Below, one piece after another: positions 26,766 through 33,281 of a stretch of 64,000 nt of DNA; position 1 is the stretch's first letter, and every line of letters starts with the position of its first letter. Source of the DNA: Plantactinospora soyae (GTDB lineage: Bacteria > Actinomycetota > Actinomycetes > Mycobacteriales > Micromonosporaceae); contig NZ_JADBEB010000001.1 in NCBI RefSeq assembly GCF_014874095.1, positions 5,084,001-5,148,000 of the forward strand. Direction: 5' to 3'. Under the pieces are notes generated by a model that ran no database searches, had not been told where the DNA came from, and saw only the letters and a list, made by a program, of their open reading frames with translations. The position numbers were made by a program, and so were the translations under genes.

Positions 26766-26850
26766 GCCCGACCCGCTCCGATCCACGCCGGCTCCGCCGC
26801 CCCGCCGCCCCGCCGCCGAGAGTCGGCACGTCCCTCCGGCGCCCCGCCGC

Positions 26851-29800
26851 TCAGCCGCCGAGGATCGACGCGTCCTGCGGTGCCGGACGCAGCCCCGGGA
26901 CGTACGGATCCAGCTCCCCCGGCTCGAACCGGCACAACTTGATGTTCCACCACAACACGTTGCCCGGATTGCCGTTGATCCGGTACGAGCCGTCGGGCAG
27001 CAGTACGGCGTACCCGTCGTCGGGCAGGGCGACCAGAACCGCGCACTCCTGGCCGGTGGTGGTGTTCCAGATCCGGACGGTGTTGTCGTAGGAGCCGGTG
27101 GCGAGTCGGGTGCCGTCGGGGGAGTAGGCGAGGGCTCTGATCTCGTTGATGTGGCCGGTGAGGATTGTGGTGGATTCGCCGGTGGTGGTGTTCCAGATCC
27201 GGACGGTGTTGTCGTTCGAGCCGGTGGCGAGTCGGGTGCCGTCGGGGGAGTAGGCGAGGGCTCTGATCTCGTTGATGTGGCCGGTGAGGATTGTGGTGGA
27301 TTCGCCGGTGGTGGTGTTCCAGATCCGGACGGTGTTGTCGTTCGAGCCGGTGGCGAGTCGGGTGCCGTCGGGGGAGTACGCCAGCGCTCGCACCCAGCTG
27401 GTGTGGCCGGTGAGGGTGAGGGTGGATTCGCCGGTGGTGGCGTCCCAGATGCGGGCCGTGTTGTCCCAGGAACTGGTGGCGAGCCGGGTGCCGTCCGGGG
27501 CCCAGGCCGCGACGGACGCGTCGTTGCTGTGGCCGGTGAGGGTGATGGATTCGCGGGTCGTCGGGTTCCAGATCCGCGCCGTGTCGTCGTCGGAGGCGGT
27601 GGCGAGGCGGGTGTCGTCGGGGGACCAGGCGACGGAGGCGACCGGCCCCTCGTGCCCGACCAGGGTGGTGGTGCGCTGCCCGGTCGCGGTGTCCCAGATC
27701 CGGGCGACGTTGTCCGAGGAGGCGGTGGCGAGGCGGGCGCCGTCGGAGGTGTAGGCGAGACCGGTGACCCACCTGCTGTGGCCGTAGACGGTATCGACGC
27801 GGCCGGTGGCGGTGTTCCAGATGCGGACGGTCCGGTCCCTGGAGGCGGTGGCGAGGCGGGTGCCGTCCGGGGACCAGACGACGCCGGTGATCGACGCCCG
27901 GTACCCGTCGAGGACACCGGTCAGCGCACCGGTGGCGGTCCAGATCCGGGCGCTGTTGTCGTACGAGGCGGTGGCGAGGTGGTTGCCGTCCGGGGAGTAG
28001 GCGACGTCGGTGACCCAGTTGAGGTGTCCGGTGAGGGTGGCGGTGGTCTGGCCGGTGCTGGTGTCCCAGATCCGGGCGGTCCGGTCCCTGGAGGTGGTGG
28101 CGAGGCGGGTGCCGTCGGGAGAGTAGGCGACGGACCTGACCAGGTCGCCGTGCCCGGTGAGCGTGGTGATGGGCTGGCCCGTGTCGAGGTCCCAGATCCG
28201 GACGGTGTTGTCGTAGGAGCCGGTGGCGAGGTGGTTGCCGTCGGGGGAGTAGGCGACGTCGGCGACCCAGTCGGTGTGTCCGGTCAGGGTGAGGATGGTC
28301 CGGCCCGTGTCGAGATCCCAGATCCGGACGGTGCTGTCGTAGGAGCCGGTGGCGAGGTGGGTGCCGTCGGGCGACCAGGCGACGGTGTTCGCGGCCCGGC
28401 GGTGCCCCCTGAGGGTGGCGGTGGTCTGCCCGGTGCCGGTGTCCCAGATCCGGGCGGTCCGGTCCCGGGAACCGGTGGCGAGGTGGGTGCCGTCGGGGGA
28501 CCAGGCGACGTCGGTGACCGAGTCGGTGTGACCGGCGAGGATGCTGGTGGCCTGGCCGGTGCCGATGTCCCAGATCCGGGCGGTCCGGTCCTTGGCGGCC
28601 GTGGCGAGGCGGCTGCCGTCCGGCGACCAGACGAGGCGGTCCACGTCGCCGGCGTGGCCGGTCAACAGCGCCAGGGTCCGGTGGTCGTTGCGGTCGACCA
28701 GTTCCACCACGTTGCCACGACTCAGCGCGATCAGCGGGCTGGTCGGCGAGAACGCCACACAGTGCAGCGGACCACCCGGCGCCACCGTCGCGGTGGCCCG
28801 GTCCCGGCCCGGTATCGACGCGGCCGCCAGGGCGGCCGAGGTCGTGGCGGAATCTGCCGGAAGTTCGGTGCCGAGCAGGGCCGCCCGACTCCACTGGCTG
28901 CCCTCGAGTGCCGCCTGCGCCAGTCTGCCGCCGAGCAGGCGGGCCGCCGTGAAGTCGGCAACCCGCAGGTCCGCACCGGTCAGGTCGAGGCCCTCCAGCC
29001 GCATGCCGCGTAGGTCGGCACCGCGTAGGTCGGCACCGCGCAGGTCCTGCCCGGCGAGGTCCTGCGACCGCAGGTCGACTCCGGCCAGGCTCTGCCGGGC
29101 CGGGCCGGCCGCCGTCGTCGGGCTCATCACGCCGACCCGCTCCCGGACGTCGAGGGCGTTCCGCTTGGCGATCGTCGAGGCGGCCGAGTCCGCCAGGACG
29201 GAGCTGGCCCAGGCGGCGGCGGGGCCGTGTCCGGCGAGGTCGCAGAAGAATCCGACCATCAGCGGCGAGAACCGGCGGGCCCCGAGCACCACGGACGGAT
29301 CACCGTCCGCCAGGGCCTGGGCGGCGGCGTCCGCCACCAGCCATTCCATGATCGACTGATGCACGAAGGCGAAGGCGTCGTCGTCGGCGCGTACCAGCAG
29401 ACTGCCCGAGGCGACCGAGTGGGCCGCCTGGTCGGCGTCGTAGCCGCGCTCGGCCAGCCGGGTCAGCGTCGCGCCCACCTCGGCCGAGAGGGTGTTGAGC
29501 GGAATGGAGGCCTCCGTCGAGGCCCACAGCCGGAGCGCCAGCGCGGTACAGGCGGTGAGTCGTTCCCGGTCGTCCAGCGAGGGCTTGCCACGCCGGTGCT
29601 GCTGCCGGTTGGCCTCACCGACCAGCCAGAAGTCCACCAGCTCCCGGTACAGCTCGGCGGCGCTGATCCGCCCCTGGCGACGCTGCACCTCCCGCAGCCG
29701 TTCCTCGTCGAGTCCGGCGATGAAGGCGAGCATCCGTGGATTGCGGGCCAGCCCGAGCAGGTCGTCGATCTCGGTGAGCAGACCGTACCGAGCCCGTGCC

Positions 29801-32724
29801 GCGGCGGCGTCCCCGTCGTAGAGGTTGGTGAGGAACTGCATGATCTGCTCGGGCGTGAAGTCCTCCAGGACCACGACACGGCTCGCGGTCAGCCCGGCGA
29901 CCCGGTCGCCGAGGGCGGTACGCACCTGGGTGGTCGACCGGAAGTGTTGGGTCCGGCTGGTCAGCACCACCTTGGCCCGATCGGTGACCGATTCCAGCAG
30001 GGTCCGCAGATAGTCGGTCGCGTTGTCGTAGCCGAGCCGCAGTTCCAGTTCGTCGAAGCCGTCGAAGAGCAGAGCCAACCGACCGCTGCGGATCATGTAG
30101 CGGAGCTTGGCCGGATTGATGTCCTCGACCTGGTGCCGGATCAGATGCTGGGCCAGCAGTTCGTCCAGGGACGGGGCCTTCTCCAGGCTGCGCAACTCCA
30201 CCAGCACCGGCTGGAGATCCGGCAGCGAGTCCGACAGGGTGTACGCGAGATGGCGGAGCAGGGCGGTCTTGCCCCGGCCGAAGTCGCCGAGCACCATGAC
30301 CAGGCGGGCGGTGTCGTCGCCGAGCCAGCGGACGACGCGCTGGTCCAGTCCCTCGTGCACCTCGTCGTCGGCGTACGCGTCGATCAGGCGGTACCGCTGC
30401 GGCAGGTACATCGCGGGCGGATAGACCTTGTCGCCGACCAGCCGGGCCGCCTGCCGGTCCAGCAGCGGCCCGAGGTCCAGCAGACCCTGGTACGCCACGA
30501 AGTTACGCAGGTGGACGCCCTGCCGCCGGGCCAGCCCGACCAGTTCCTTCGGGGCGGGCGGGCCGGGGTGGACGAGTTCGGAACGGGCCTTGAGATCGGC
30601 GGCGGCGAAGGTGGCGTGCACCGTACCGGCGAAGTGTGCGATCACCTCGGCGGTGGGTGGCCCGTCGAGCACGCCCACCGCCCACTGCTCGACGCCGTCG
30701 CCGTCCGGCAGCGGATTCGAGACCCGGAGGTAGTTGGCCCCGGGGCGGGCGACCACCGTTGCCCGGGGCAGCCGGACCCGGGTGGCCTCCAGCACCCGGC
30801 CGAGGAAGTCGTCGTCGGAACGGCCCGGGTCGTAACCGTGGAGATCCGCCGAGACGGCGACGTCGCCGAGTTCCACCCCACGGGGTCCCGACTCCGGCTG
30901 ATCCTCCACCGATCCTCCGGCCGGGAGGCTGGCGTCCACGTTGGTCAGCTCGTACGGCTGATGCTGGCGCCAGTCCGAACCCGTACGGCTGATCCGGGTG
31001 TCGCCGATCCAGCGGCGCTGCCCCACGGCGTACTGCCGGGCGTACCGGGTGAAGCCGGTCCGGCCGATGGTGACCAGCTGGTACTGGTTCGGCACCTCGG
31101 CCGGTCGGGCGTCGGCGTCGACCGCCGCGCTGCCGGTGGAGAGGGCGACCAGCCCGGACGGCAGCCGGTGCAGCCGCCCGTCGTGGGTGTGCCCGTGCAG
31201 CAGCAGGTTGACCAGTCCCGGTTCGCCGAGGATCCGGTCAAGGTCGTCGGCGTCGCGCAGGTTCTCCTCGTCGTCGACCGCCCCGCGTACGACGTTGTGA
31301 TGCACCGCCGCGAGCCGCAGCCAGCCCCGCGACCGGTAGTCGGCCAGCCGGTCGGCGAACCAGCGCAGTTGCGTCTCGCCGACCCAGCCGTAGTGATCGG
31401 CGTCGCGATGGCTCTCCGCCATCGTGGAGTTCAGCCCGGCGACCACCACCGCCAGGCCGGGTACCTCGAACAGGGTCCACGGCTCGTCCGGGGTGAAGCT
31501 CACCCCCGGTACGTCGGCGTAGAAGTCCTCGAACGCCGCGGTGAACTGCTTCCACTTGGGGAAGTACGGCGGAACCGGTACCCGCTCCTCGCCCTCCTCG
31601 CTGATGAAGTAGCCCTCGCAGGACTTCCGGTTGACGTCGTGGTTGCCGGGAACGATCACCACTCTGTCCCGGGGCAGCTCGGCCGCCTCGGACAGCGCCG
31701 CAAGGAACTCCGTGACCTGGACGAACTCGCTGCCCAGCCCCCACTCCGCGAGGTCGCCGGTGACCAGCAGCAGGTCCGGCAGCAGGCCATGCTGCTCGGC
31801 CAGTCCGGTCAGGTCCTGGTGCAGTCGGGTGTGCAGGGTGTCGTACGTCTGGTCGGCCGGGGTCTGGCCGTTGCCGCCGAACAGGTGGTGCCGGCCGAAC
31901 TGCGGATCGGAGACGTGCAGCACCGTCAGTCGCTCGTCGCCGTTGCGGCTCTGCGTACCGGCCGGCCGAGGGTCGCCCGACCTGCTCGCCGCCCCGCTCC
32001 GGCTCCGCTGCCGGACCACGGTCCGGGGATCGAGGACCTCCGGCCAGGTCAACCGGAGCCGGTCGGCCGCGATCGCGTAGCTGTCCCGGTCGCCGGAGTG
32101 GGCCGGCGCGGCGAGGGCGAGCATGCCGACCACCCGGCCGGACGTGTCGTCGTACACCGGGCTTCCGCTGTAGCCGGGTTGGACCCGCAGCGCCGCGTCG
32201 GCGCCGGAGTCGAGCTGGATCCGGCCGCCGCCGACCAGGCCGCGCAACACGGTCGGTACCCACGCCCCGGACCGCCGTGGCGGGGTGCCCGGATAGCCGA
32301 AGACGGAGAGGGCGTGGCCGGCCCGGGGCAGGTTCACCGCCAGCCGGGCCGGGTGGGCGCCGGCCGGTGCGTGCCCCTCCAACAGCACCAGTCCGGCGGT
32401 GTCGTCGCCGGGGCTCCGCTCGCCGGGTGGGGGTGTCCAACGCTCGACCCGAGCCTGCCGACCCGGTCCGTCGTCCTCGCCGGGTAGCAGCGGGAACTGC
32501 ACGAGAACGGGTGAGTCGGGCAGCGGCTGGGACCGCAGCGGCAGGCCGAGGGCGACGTTGACCACGTGCGCGCAGGTCAGGATCTCCCGGGGCCCGACCA
32601 GCGTGCCGACGCCGACCGGTTCACCGGCCGGGCCGAGGATCCGGACGACGAACGGCTCCGGTCGGGGTACGGCGCCCGGGAGCGGCGTGTCGGCCCGACT
32701 CAGCCTGGCGTCACCGCCGAGCAT
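26851..32724 (-). CDS. multidomain trypsin-phosphoesterase-NACHT-pentapeptide-WD40 protein
   Basis: 1957 residues. In order: trypsin-like protease, about 25-240 (His53 in TCAHVV, Asp108 in DDTAGLVLL, Ser186 in PGYSGSP); calcineurin-like phosphoesterase, about 263-560 (SDPQFG, TGDLAEWG, GNHDVN, HHN, GHTHDG; the usual first DxH is DxQ); an uncharacterised stretch, about 590-800; NACHT ATPase with Walker A GDFGRGKT (813-820) and Walker B LALLFDGFDELEL (about 882); helical region; pentapeptide repeats (about 1211-1275); 14 WD40 blades, about 1311-1950. STAND ATPases with such sensors and effectors act in biological conflict. ATG 32724 overlaps the Trypco1 gene by 14 bp; TTG 32754 is an alternative start. 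Confidence 0.85.
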   Translation of the reverse strand: MLGGDARLSRADTPLPGAVPRPEPFVVRILGPAGEPVGVGTLVGPREILTCAHVVNVALGLPLRSQPLPDSPVLVQFPLLPGEDDGPGRQARVERWTPPPGERSPGDDTAGLVLLEGHAPAGAHPARLAVNLPRAGHALSVFGYPGTPPRRSGAWVPTVLRGLVGGGRIQLDSGADAALRVQPGYSGSPVYDDTSGRVVGMLALAAPAHSGDRDSYAIAADRLRLTWPEVLDPRTVVRQRSRSGAASRSGDPRPAGTQSRNGDERLTVLHVSDPQFGRHHLFGGNGQTPADQTYDTLHTRLHQDLTGLAEQHGLLPDLLLVTGDLAEWGLGSEFVQVTEFLAALSEAAELPRDRVVIVPGNHDVNRKSCEGYFISEEGEERVPVPPYFPKWKQFTAAFEDFYADVPGVSFTPDEPWTLFEVPGLAVVVAGLNSTMAESHRDADHYGWVGETQLRWFADRLADYRSRGWLRLAAVHHNVVRGAVDDEENLRDADDLDRILGEPGLVNLLLHGHTHDGRLHRLPSGLVALSTGSAAVDADARPAEVPNQYQLVTIGRTGFTRYARQYAVGQRRWIGDTRISRTGSDWRQHQPYELTNVDASLPAGGSVEDQPESGPRGVELGDVAVSADLHGYDPGRSDDDFLGRVLEATRVRLPRATVVARPGANYLRVSNPLPDGDGVEQWAVGVLDGPPTAEVIAHFAGTVHATFAAADLKARSELVHPGPPAPKELVGLARRQGVHLRNFVAYQGLLDLGPLLDRQAARLVGDKVYPPAMYLPQRYRLIDAYADDEVHEGLDQRVVRWLGDDTARLVMVLGDFGRGKTALLRHLAYTLSDSLPDLQPVLVELRSLEKAPSLDELLAQHLIRHQVEDINPAKLRYMIRSGRLALLFDGFDELELRLGYDNATDYLRTLLESVTDRAKVVLTSRTQHFRSTTQVRTALGDRVAGLTASRVVVLEDFTPEQIMQFLTNLYDGDAAAARARYGLLTEIDDLLGLARNPRMLAFIAGLDEERLREVQRRQGRISAAELYRELVDFWLVGEANRQQHRRGKPSLDDRERLTACTALALRLWASTEASIPLNTLSAEVGATLTRLAERGYDADQAAHSVASGSLLVRADDDAFAFVHQSIMEWLVADAAAQALADGDPSVVLGARRFSPLMVGFFCDLAGHGPAAAWASSVLADSAASTIAKRNALDVRERVGVMSPTTAAGPARQSLAGVDLRSQDLAGQDLRGADLRGADLRGMRLEGLDLTGADLRVADFTAARLLGGRLAQAALEGSQWSRAALLGTELPADSATTSAALAAASIPGRDRATATVAPGGPLHCVAFSPTSPLIALSRGNVVELVDRNDHRTLALLTGHAGDVDRLVWSPDGSRLATAAKDRTARIWDIGTGQATSILAGHTDSVTDVAWSPDGTHLATGSRDRTARIWDTGTGQTTATLRGHRRAANTVAWSPDGTHLATGSYDSTVRIWDLDTGRTILTLTGHTDWVADVAYSPDGNHLATGSYDNTVRIWDLDTGQPITTLTGHGDLVRSVAYSPDGTRLATTSRDRTARIWDTSTGQTTATLTGHLNWVTDVAYSPDGNHLATASYDNSARIWTATGALTGVLDGYRASITGVVWSPDGTRLATASRDRTVRIWNTATGRVDTVYGHSRWVTGLAYTSDGARLATASSDNVARIWDTATGQRTTTLVGHEGPVASVAWSPDDTRLATASDDDTARIWNPTTRESITLTGHSNDASVAAWAPDGTRLATSSWDNTARIWDATTGESTLTLTGHTSWVRALAYSPDGTRLATGSNDNTVRIWNTTTGESTTILTGHINEIRALAYSPDGTRLATGSNDNTVRIWNTTTGESTTILTGHINEIRALAYSPDGTRLATGSYDNTVRIWNTTTGQECAVLVALPDDGYAVLLPDGSYRINGNPGNVLWWNIKLCRFEPGELDPYVPGLRPAPQDASILGG
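27061..27312 (-). repeat. two near-identical 126-bp WD40 repeat units
   Basis: Units 27061-27186 and 27187-27312 differ at only two of 126 positions. A third unit from 27313 shares roughly the first half and then diverges. Each encodes one 42-residue blade with INEIRALAYSPDGTRLATGS. Neighbouring blades further along are much less alike, so this is a recent duplication. Confidence 0.9.
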
Positions 32725-33121
32725 GGTCGTCCGACACCGCAGGGGCGCCCGCAACCGCCGATTCCGCCGGTCCGGCCGCTGAGGTGGTATCGGGGGCCGG
32801 CGGATCGGGGCGCTTCCAGCACAGCGTCACCGTGAAGTGCACCTCCGTGCTGCCCTTGGCCACCACGATGCCGGTCTCCGCCCCGAGCTTGATGCCGAAC
32901 TCGACCGTCACCTCGTCCGGGGCCATCGCCGCGAGTCCGTTCCGTACCGCCTGAACCGCCGGCCGGAGCTGGTCCAGGGCCTGTTCGAGGGTCTGTCCGG
33001 CCCGGGCGAGCACCTCACCGGGACGGGCGGCGAGGACCAGGTCGGCCGGCAGGTCCACCTCGGTCGCCTCGACCAGCAGTTGCCCGCCGCCCTCCACCGG
33101 TACGTCGATCAGGTACGTCAT
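32711..33121 (-). CDS. Trypco1-domain protein (CU044_2847 family)
   Basis: 136 residues. The core, about residues 1-105, matches the trypsin-co-occurring domain 1: L-x-V-E-A near the start, GQTLEQALDQLRPAVQAV, DEVTVEFGIKLGAETGIVVA and HFTVTLCWKRP. This domain was defined by its repeated neighbourhood with trypsin-like proteases in predicted conflict systems. It overlaps the trypsin-NACHT gene by 14 bp and is transcribed with it, so it is very likely a partner, perhaps substrate or regulator, of that protease. A Pro/Ala-rich tail of about 30 residues follows. ATG 33121 is preferred over GTG 33133, which abuts the ribosome-binding site. Confidence 0.82.
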   Translation of the reverse strand: MTYLIDVPVEGGGQLLVEATEVDLPADLVLAARPGEVLARAGQTLEQALDQLRPAVQAVRNGLAAMAPDEVTVEFGIKLGAETGIVVAKGSTEVHFTVTLCWKRPDPPAPDTTSAAGPAESAVAGAPAVSDDHARR

Positions 33122-33281
33122 GCGTCCGGTCACCTTCCGCTGTGGTCACTGGCCGGCATCACCCTAATCGGCGGGTGCGATCACCAGGAGTCGACGTGAC
33201 GGTGACGGGTAGACCGAACGCCGATCCGGCCCTGGCAGGACGACGTCCATCAGGGAGGACGGTTCCCGCCCGGGCGGGCGC

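Follow-up and report, generated by a model that had tools for sequence, protein, structure and literature searches.

Gene pair and insertion site

What kind of system do two overlapping genes encode when they occupy a site that is otherwise conserved between species, and do the protease and the phosphoesterase joined in the larger product both work? We analysed a stretch of 64,000 nucleotides from Plantactinospora soyae (hereafter the window), in which a preliminary description had predicted a conflict system made of a Trypco1 gene and one very large gene. Reading of the ORFs bore out the coordinates, the strand and the overlap of 14 bp (32711-32724) that had been given for the two genes (Table 1). 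The start of the Trypco1 gene was picked by alignment with the related locus L031 and by the presence of GGAAGG upstream; an alternative GTG start at 33133 is possible. A longer version of the large ORF, from TTG 32754, is also listed.

Table 1. Features of the inserted segment, in window coordinates
Feature	Coordinates	Strand	Evidence or remarks
Putative inserted accessory segment, containing only the two genes	26777..33281	.	Breaks in flank homology; empty site
Trypco1 (CU044_2847 family) gene	32711..33121	-	136 aa from ATG 33121; PF19493, NF041216
Trypsin-MPP-NA-iREase3-NACHT-pentapeptide-WD40 gene, 1957 aa	26851..32724	-	ORF and domain profiles
Trypsin-like (V8/Esp-like) protease domain, triad H53-D108-S186	32122..32613	-	PF13365, E 5e-12
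Calcineurin-like phosphoesterase (MPP)	30955..31923	-	PF00149 (Metallophos), E 1e-13
NA-iREase3, NACHT-associated inactive restriction endonuclease domain	30472..30813	-	PF22739, E 1e-35
NACHT NTPase	29815..30303	-	PF05729, E 1e-12; Walker A GDFGRGKT (K819), Walker B LLFDGFDE (D888)
Pentapeptide repeats	28777..29049	-	PF00805, E 6e-11
14 WD40 blades, putative sensor	27004..28773	-	Repeat analysis; two 7-bladed propellers would fit
WD40 blades 12 and 13	27130..27381	-	DNA 99% identical

Homology of the flanks stops at about position 26776 and resumes at about 33281. A 279-bp empty site stands in place of the gene pair in one congener (G003), and the insert is missing from all four congeners whose site was read. 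To judge from these boundaries, the pair is an accessory insert, probably acquired horizontally, in an otherwise conserved site. It lies between a gene for a MarR-type regulator and a 2OG-Fe(II) oxygenase (AlkB-like) gene, the latter adjoining aspS. The preliminary description had called for a survey of this gene pair near defence islands. The ten ORFs scanned around the pair are housekeeping-like or unknown; PADLOC matches were confined to two of them and to their generic portions, an ABC-ATPase and a 2OG-oxygenase. There is thus no evident defence island at this locus. A search for a plasmid copy of the insert gave one partial match (4%), and phage records searched with the N-terminal 800 residues of the large protein gave none.

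Domain architecture of the two proteins

Profile searches of separate segments, as the preliminary description had advised, gave matches for the trypsin (Trypsin_2), MPP, NACHT and pentapeptide parts of the large protein, with the protease triad, the GNHD and GHTH motifs of the phosphoesterase and the Walker residues Lys819 and Asp888 where they had been placed. The Trypco1 assignment was equally upheld, by Pfam (PF19493, E 1.5e-27) and by the NCBIfam model CU044_2847_fam (NF041216), above its cut-off. The NA-iREase3 domain (residues 638-751) had been overlooked in the first reading. A NACHT domain with both Walker motifs lies between N-terminal enzymes and C-terminal repeats, a domain order that agrees with the proposed STAND-type assignment. 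Relatives that share this domain order and are of comparable length were found repeatedly, which, together with the profile scores, excludes chance or a misreading of the domains.

The solved sequences nearest to the trypsin domain are glutamyl endopeptidases (E 1e-3), and Foldseek matched Esp, V8 and DegS at E about 1e-9. The triad columns are invariant in alignments of seven rows and of four rows. The structure model of Trypco1 is middling (pLDDT 70) and matched no solved fold at E <= 0.001.

A widespread scaffold with several N-termini

The large protein belongs to a widespread family in which an N-terminal slot, usually occupied by TIR, is followed by MPP, NA-iREase3, NACHT, pentapeptide repeats and WD40 blades; the N-terminus of this scaffold carries TIR, trypsin or MPP. 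The arrangement had initially been thought undescribed. This holds in part: what is unusual, in comparison with the family, is that trypsin and Trypco1 take the place normally filled by TIR and that the MPP metal site is retained, but MPP, pentapeptide repeats and WD40 blades are the standing scaffold. A literature search, with subscription journals mostly beyond its reach, found no description of the combined architecture.

The window protein forms one trypsin clade with those of L031, L097 (from a metagenome-assembled genome) and L098, and a Trypco1 gene also lies beside the trypsin-type gene in these three. Nine further genes encoding a related trypsin were scanned; each of them encodes nSTAND1, and eight have Trypco1 immediately upstream. 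This recurrent order, with the small gene first and directly upstream or overlapping in 4/4 clade members and 8/9 nSTAND1 relatives, is also what would be expected of a toxin-antitoxin-like pair, in which Trypco1 would be a labile protease inhibitor and not an adaptor. We regard such a pair as unlikely, as no Trypco1 was detected next to the two trypsin-type genes of L032, the three of L033 or that of L264; it is therefore not obligatory. Nor does Trypco1 occur only with an intact MPP, an idea ruled out by L265 and L266, where Trypco1 adjoins and the MPP has no GNHD or GH[TA]H.

On the trypsin tree, a single origin of trypsin in the family fails the AU test (p 0.0028 for the full nine rows; 0.0036 with L223 added); the NACHT tree allows it (AU p 0.318). 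Trypsin seems to have entered the family on two or more occasions.

Retention and loss of the MPP metal site

The best NCBIfam match of the window MPP is NF053862, the antiphage phosphoesterase DS9_1 (E 2.5e-31 over residues 263-525, below cut-off), and the domain resembles Rv0805 in sequence (E 7e-7) and fold (TMt 0.77). The canonical metal set of calcineurin-like enzymes is D, H, D, N, H, H, H, with D-x-H usual. The window MPP has D, D, N-H, H and H-x-H, with Gln275 at the D-x-H position, where L098 has Arg. Its eight metal-site residues (D273, Q275, D324, N361, H362, H475, H512 and H514) served as our yardstick, which is thus taken from the window's own MPP. By this measure, 12 family members match all eight residues, L031 and L097 among them, and L098 matches seven.

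The MPP is absent, degenerate or cut off in 106 of the 121 members compared. Among TIR-type members, an MPP was detected in 87, of which 3 have all eight residues, and the domain is degenerate or undetected in five of the nine trypsin-bearing members. Judged by these counts, the family as a whole does not require an active MPP. In the clade of the window, L031, L097 and L098, the active sites look complete, and protease and MPP are probably both used.

As the metal site is missing in most members, 'effector' may be the wrong label for the MPP. The domain might instead be regulatory, gating the NACHT or the N-terminal effector by binding or removing a nucleotide, and have turned into a pseudoenzyme that only binds in most relatives, with trypsin or TIR as the sole weapon. 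This would agree with the degenerate MPP, which retains its fold match and the GLNST Asn wherever an MPP was detected but has lost metal residues in most members, and with the 12 members of a less biased set in which no MPP was detected. We consider a purely regulatory MPP possible though doubtful, because the MPP is the first domain in six complete-site members, 12-57 residues from the open-frame start and hence in the usual effector position, and because a catalytic MPP is reported, in the accessible part of the source, to be essential in DS-8 and DS-9 (PMC13092281).

Differences between MPP-core and NACHT identity amount to +3.9 points in the window's clade (6 pairs), -4.7 in TIR pairs and -17 in trypsin pairs with a degenerate MPP. 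However, complete-site MPP-first pairs (6 pairs) resemble the degenerate TIR pairs in having an MPP less conserved than NACHT, at -5.1 points, which weakens the argument; conservation alone is therefore no proof of catalysis. The correlation between N-terminal gain and MPP decay had no statistical power (2-3 independent pairs; 5 MPP-state changes).

Turnover of the WD40 blades

The 14 WD40 blades of the preliminary description were all counted, each of 41-42 residues, with blade 1 diverged. The near-identity of blades 12 and 13 is, at the DNA level, the signature of a recent blade duplication. Mean blade identity is 0.53 in the window and 0.87 in L031, and whole-blade pN/pS is 1.16 and 0.88, respectively, values that do not prove positive selection. 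Codons 7, 9, 25 and 27 selected in HET-E correspond to blade positions 38, 40, 14 and 16 here. Diversity is enriched at these four positions in the window (p 0.0023), L031 (0.0002), L098 (0.0040) and L097 (0.0115; all uncorrected), so that 4/4 members of the clade reach p<0.05 versus 10/96 overall. Neither of the two L032/L033 rows with enough blades shows the enrichment, and HET-E-like variability in all trypsin types is ruled out by L264 (p 0.068), L265 (0.52) and L266 (0.085). Blade orthology between species is little or none in the window's clade, and one-to-one blades were found in 12/12 chosen TIR pairs. These patterns suggest that the WD40 sensor of the clade changes fast by blade turnover, perhaps under positive selection.

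The host family is filamentous, and the pair might serve kin or self/non-self recognition between mycelia, like fungal HET-D/HET-E, instead of phage defence. Such a role would account for the blade turnover and for a NACHT protein with about 14 WD40 blades that appear to vary at the positions reported as positively selected in HET-E (PMC1805685, in part). We nevertheless find it rather improbable, since antiphage roles are reported for NACHT proteins of bacteria and for antiviral STAND proteins (PMC10907252, in part) and since other STAND proteins of bacteria also carry highly repetitive propellers (WRAP; PMC9218822, in part).

Still less probable is a developmental or metabolic regulator outside conflict. 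The housekeeping-like flanking genes would suit it, and early work on STAND proteins of bacteria dealt mainly with transcription regulators (PMC7159879, in part), but the absence of the insert from the four congeners, the turnover of the sensor and the homology of the MPP to antiphage enzymes all argue against it.

Proposed mechanism and significance

On balance, we lean towards a horizontally inserted conflict receptor of STAND/NLR type, probably antiphage and possibly acting in kin recognition. Homology of the MPP to DS9_1 and the MPP-NACHT precedent of DS-8 count in its favour. The double propeller of 14 WD40 blades would bind a foreign or altered protein via variable residues of its face, and binding would free the NACHT ATPase to oligomerise on the pentapeptide/NA-iREase3 scaffold. 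Clustering would activate the trypsin at the N-terminus, and Trypco1 would be the partner of this protease, whether as adaptor, as inhibitor or as first substrate. Simultaneously, the MPP, similar to class III cyclic-nucleotide phosphodiesterases, would hydrolyse a nucleotide, either as a second effector or as a gate on the first, and the outcome would be growth arrest or cell death. The chain may thus carry two effectors, as initially proposed.

More tentatively, the protein may be an NLR with two working enzymes of different chemistry, a protease and a nucleotide phosphodiesterase, in which a mobile Trypco1-trypsin cassette was set before an older MPP-NACHT receptor, the WD40 double propeller diversifies by blade turnover at the face positions that vary in fungal allorecognition receptors and the second enzyme has decayed in most sampled relatives. 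If the two-enzyme reading is true, this decay makes the family a natural experiment in effector replacement. One scaffold with TIR, trypsin or MPP N-termini gives a comparative handle on weapon change in NLR-type receptors, the MPP metal site being kept in few members and decayed in many, with the window's clade as a case where two enzymes would persist. The blade data would place NACHT proteins of bacteria beside HET-E in the way their sensors evolve, and fixed versus shuffling sensors within one family make sensor diversification in bacterial immunity directly testable.

Comparison with known systems

No antiphage NCBIfam model matched the pair above its cut-off. PADLOC hits fell on the WD40 repeats (HEAT-ARM_XIII, E 3.6e-45) and on short segments of the MPP or the NACHT (PDC-S60, 8e-8; 'Effector', 7e-7; mad8, 7e-4). 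DS-8 (NF053861), from DefensePredictor, is a tested antiphage protein with MPP and NACHT in a single chain, in which MPP or NACHT residue mutants lose defence (PMC13092281). Its MPP is homologous to that of the window, which however matches the model over 51 residues only, scoring 32 bits where the cut-off is 790, and the accessible part of its description mentions no trypsin, Trypco1, NA-iREase3, pentapeptides or WD40 (PMC13092281). DS-9A (NF053862) is the best match of the window MPP, at 109 bits against a cut-off of 420; unlike the fused MPP of the window, DS-9 consists of a separate MPP gene and a HAD phosphatase gene (PMC13092281, in part).

Kaur et al. 2020 described Trypco1-trypsin systems (VMAP ternary) in which Trypco1 adjoins a trypsin-like peptidase, and in trypsin-nSTAND1 proteins, the trypsin is N-terminal on an NTPase protein, both as in the window. 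In contrast, the NTPase of the window is a NACHT, not VMAP/MoxR-vWA or nSTAND1, with MPP and NA-iREase3 in between. No VMAP, MoxR AAA+ or vWA family was found in the pair (for the large gene, among the best 25 of 66 families and in its segments) or in the ten neighbours.

TIR-type relatives, such as the paralogue L014 in the same genome, share the whole scaffold from MPP to WD40 but have TIR for trypsin, a lost MPP metal site, one-to-one blades and no detected Trypco1. Fungal HET-D/HET-E (HNWD) NLRs and cyanobacterial WRAP proteins likewise combine NACHT or STAND with about 14 internally similar WD40 blades, and the window protein appears to vary at the same blade positions as HET-E. They differ in their effectors and in that positive selection is reported there and only suggested for the window. 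Fungal HNWD blades are 80-100% identical, above the mean of the window protein, and L031 comes within their range.

Domain composition of the two genes

The two-gene system described here is real, recurrent and accessory. Its small protein is a Trypco1 protein (PF19493, E 1.5e-27; the CU044_2847 family model also exceeds its cut-off). The large one begins with a Trypsin_2 domain (E 5e-12), followed by a calcineurin-like phosphoesterase (MPP; PF00149, E 1e-13), NA-iREase3 (PF22739, E 1e-35) and NACHT (E 1e-12) domains, pentapeptides (E 6e-11) and, lastly, WD40 repeats. Profile searches and coordinates agree with the preliminary description on every domain that it named and on the overlap of the genes; it had overlooked NA-iREase3. 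The trypsin active-site residues are H53 (within TCAHVV), D108 and S186, the MPP metal-site residues are D273, Q275, D324, N361, H362, H475, H512 and H514, and the Walker residues of the NACHT domain are Lys819 and Asp888.

Coordinates of the two genes in the window
Gene	Position	Strand	Codons	Remark
Trypco1 gene	32711-33121	minus	136	start ATG 33121
Large gene	26851-32724	minus	1957	14-bp overlap with the Trypco1 gene

Structure prediction, which the same description had suggested, gave both N-terminal folds. In Foldseek searches with an AlphaFold2 model of residues 1-760 of the large protein (mean pLDDT 82, 45-row alignment), the MPP domain resembles Rv0805 (TMt 0.77), Lmo2642 and GpdQ, and the protease resembles Esp/V8 and DegS. 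The best matches of PDB sequence searches were Rv0805 for the former (E 7e-7) and glutamyl endopeptidases for the latter (E 1e-3).

Genomic site

The genome is a single contig of 9.7 Mb. A MarR-type gene flanks the pair on one side, and genes for a 2OG-Fe(II) oxygenase and a class II tRNA synthetase, which we read as AlkB-like and aspS, respectively, flank it on the other. The MarR-type protein is present in five of the seven genus genomes searched, this one included, and the other four have the same neighbours and no pair. Between the MarR-type and oxygenase genes lie 6.5 kb in the window genome but 279 bp in G003; in G002, G006 and G001 this gap measures 1.7-2.1 kb and contains other open frames. 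As congeners have the same neighbours without the pair, and the homology of the flanks ends at ~26776 and ~33281, the pair is an accessory insert containing these two genes alone. No VMAP, MoxR or vWA families were found in the 10 neighbouring ORFs scanned; PADLOC matched parts of two of them (the ABC ATPase: mad3, AriA; the oxygenase: CARF_2OG) and no others.

Survey of the family

NA-iREase3 was detected in 7 of 61 relatives and, across the class, in 24 of 296 genomes. The first search listed 10 places outside the window genome and the second 42; the surrounding sequence was retrieved for all of the former and for 35 of the latter. The N-terminal parts of 10 relatives were scanned, revealing TIR_2 in nine and HTH in one. 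An MPP-NACHT alignment scan of genome contigs (84,980 species) yielded at least 385 relatives, of which 80 were kept; these are mainly from Actinomycetota, but also from Planctomycetota, among them a Brocadiaceae MAG, and from the myxobacterium Paraliomyxa. This set is biased by MPP sequence, because the scan relied on two peptide patterns, [VI]PGNHDVN and PPY[WF][PS]KW[KRE]. After removal of seven duplicates, 121 members were analysed, 47 from the NA-iREase3 searches, a count that includes the window protein, and 74 from the contig scan. The window genome itself codes for a second member, of the TIR-MPP-NA-iREase3-NACHT type (L014:5635-11919, contig C1, ~6.58 Mb), whose MPP site is fully degenerate and whose NACHT domain is 98% identical in the congener G002.

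Trypsin and Trypco1

In a NACHT-only tree of 61 members, with degenerate TIR types subsampled, the window protein and those of loci L031, L097 and L098 form a single clade (SH-aLRT 100), hereafter the window's clade, and the five trypsin genes of L032 and L033 form a separate one (SH-aLRT 100). A single trypsin group uniting both was rejected on a 60-row trypsin tree (AU p 0.0028), although the NACHT tree is compatible with it (AU p 0.318). Since the trypsin tree refuses this joining, the family apparently captured trypsin at least twice. The L032 and L033 genes lie in tandem arrays, two genes at L032 (6080-17037, G032) and three at L033 (5074-20000, G013); all are of the trypsin-MPP-NACHT type, their MPP is degenerate, and Trypco1 was not detected.

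Among the trypsin matches listed in the family and class genome searches, we read 13 regions: nine have nSTAND1, one is again the Catellatospora gene (L098) and three are further trypsin-MPP genes. Trypco1 is directly upstream in eight of the nine trypsin-nSTAND1 genes. As for the trypsin-MPP genes, 12 in total were read; Trypco1 is upstream in the window, L031, L097, L098 and L266 and adjoins the gene in divergent orientation in L265, and none was detected at those of L264, L032 and L033. As Trypco1 and trypsin are also found together at nSTAND1 genes, they behave as a cassette.

One trypsin-nSTAND1 protein adjoined by Trypco1 (L254:2730-6926, G665) runs on into HisKA, HATPase and response-regulator domains, not WD40. 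The trypsin-MPP-WD40 protein of L264 (2726-7435, G395), possibly an inactive member, matches NACHT weakly, and neither a Walker A nor a GNHD pattern was found in it. Elsewhere in the window genome (L015:5391-9794, C1, ~9.54 Mb), another Trypco1 gene lies directly ahead of a 1352-aa gene that matches NACHT and, weakly, trypsin.

Trypsin and Trypco1 together with a complete MPP site seem to be a rare combination, because among 354 genomes of the taxonomic family (eight candidates per genome scored) the window genome, G026 and G437 alone matched the profile below 1e-100, all being profile members, with the next at 4e-56. Among 394 class genomes (seven candidates per genome scored), the window genome alone matched.

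State of the MPP metal site

We scored eight metal-site columns, taking the residues of the window protein as the yardstick. In the less biased set, all eight are present in 6 of 35 MPP-bearing members (TIR 3/24, trypsin 2/7, neither 1/4), and a further 12 members have no detected MPP. The contig-scan set, biased by MPP sequence, has all eight in 6/74 (TIR 0/63, trypsin 1/2, neither 5/9). Over the 121 members, 12 have eight residues, two (L098, L134) seven and one five; the other 106, some of them cut by contig ends, have at most three or no MPP. Six members with all eight residues have the MPP as their first domain, which begins 12-57 residues into the open frame; neither TIR nor trypsin was detected in them. 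Changes on the tree (five of MPP state, four of N-terminal type) are too few for a correlation test.

The difference between MPP-core and NACHT identity, computed per pair with motif columns excluded, is +3.9 points in the window's clade (6 pairs; those with L098 approximately -3, -3 and +4) and +5.8 in TIR proteins with complete MPP (2 pairs). It is -4.7 in degenerate TIR proteins (2913 non-independent pairs), -13 in degenerate proteins with neither TIR nor trypsin (7 pairs) and -17 in degenerate trypsin proteins (10 pairs). These differences indicate that the MPP domain is under strong constraint in the window's clade, which fits retained catalysis. By itself the difference is no proof of catalysis, since the MPP-first control with a complete site gives -5.1 (6 pairs). 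Next to the trypsin-type gene of Catellatospora vulcania (L098:1-5700) lie another MPP-NACHT gene, facing the other way and with a partly degenerate MPP, and a further MPP-like stretch.

The putative WD40 sensor

The window protein has 14 WD40 blades, the DNA of blades 12 and 13 being 99% identical. The blades of L031 have a mean identity of 0.87; in the 12 compared, changes cluster at positions 7, 10, 14, 16, 37 and 38, and silent change is confined to codons 8 and 13. In the fungal receptor HET-E, the codons described as selected are 7, 9, 25 and 27, either side of the conserved 8 and 26 (PMC1805685). Aligned on the conserved Asp, they correspond by our mapping to positions 38, 40, 14 and 16 here; position 37 of L031 falls outside the HET-E set. 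With this set fixed beforehand, diversity is enriched at its positions (p<0.05, uncorrected) in 10 of the 96 members that have five or more blades free of gaps (25/121 dropped): 4/4 in the window's clade, which are relatives and so not independent, 2/2 MPP-first, 4/84 TIR with degenerate or no MPP and 0/6 others. Three later trypsin types gave 0/3.

The best-on-diagonal score of blade correspondence is 0-0.31 in the window's clade (6 pairs, NACHT identity 56-73%), in contrast to 0.54-1.0 for 12 chosen TIR pairs (67-98%), five of which, at 67-73%, gave 0.54-0.86. Because the clade's blades hardly pair one-to-one, unlike those of the chosen TIR pairs, blade shuffling is well supported by these comparisons. 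Blade pN/pS is 1.16 for the window and 0.88 for L031; positive selection on the blades is not proven.

Comparison with known systems

Most likely, the pair is a conflict receptor of the NLR-like type, equipped with a protease and a predicted phosphodiesterase that is probably active. Regarding its putative sensor, HET-D/E are described as likely double propellers (PMC12222747), and a STAND protein carrying 14 near-identical WD40 blades has been described from Nostoc (WRAP; PMC9218822). DS-8 is reported as an antiphage MPP-NACHT protein requiring both domains for defence, and DS-9A as a related antiphage MPP (PMC13092281). DS-9A is the best match of the window MPP, yet under the DS-9A cut-off, and the match to DS-8 is weak; from these scores, the window MPP is a relative of both, not a member. 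Trypco1 was named by Kaur et al. 2020 from genes adjoining trypsin in VMAP systems (PMC7159879), and Kaur et al. 2021 describe TIR, calcineurin, caspase and trypsin as N-terminal alternatives within one STAND set with NACHT or nSTAND1 (PMC8195603). The preliminary description had considered the arrangement undescribed, and literature searches for the combined architecture gave no description of it. As far as these searches show, what is new is that two alternative N-terminal domains, trypsin and MPP, occur together, both with complete-looking sites.
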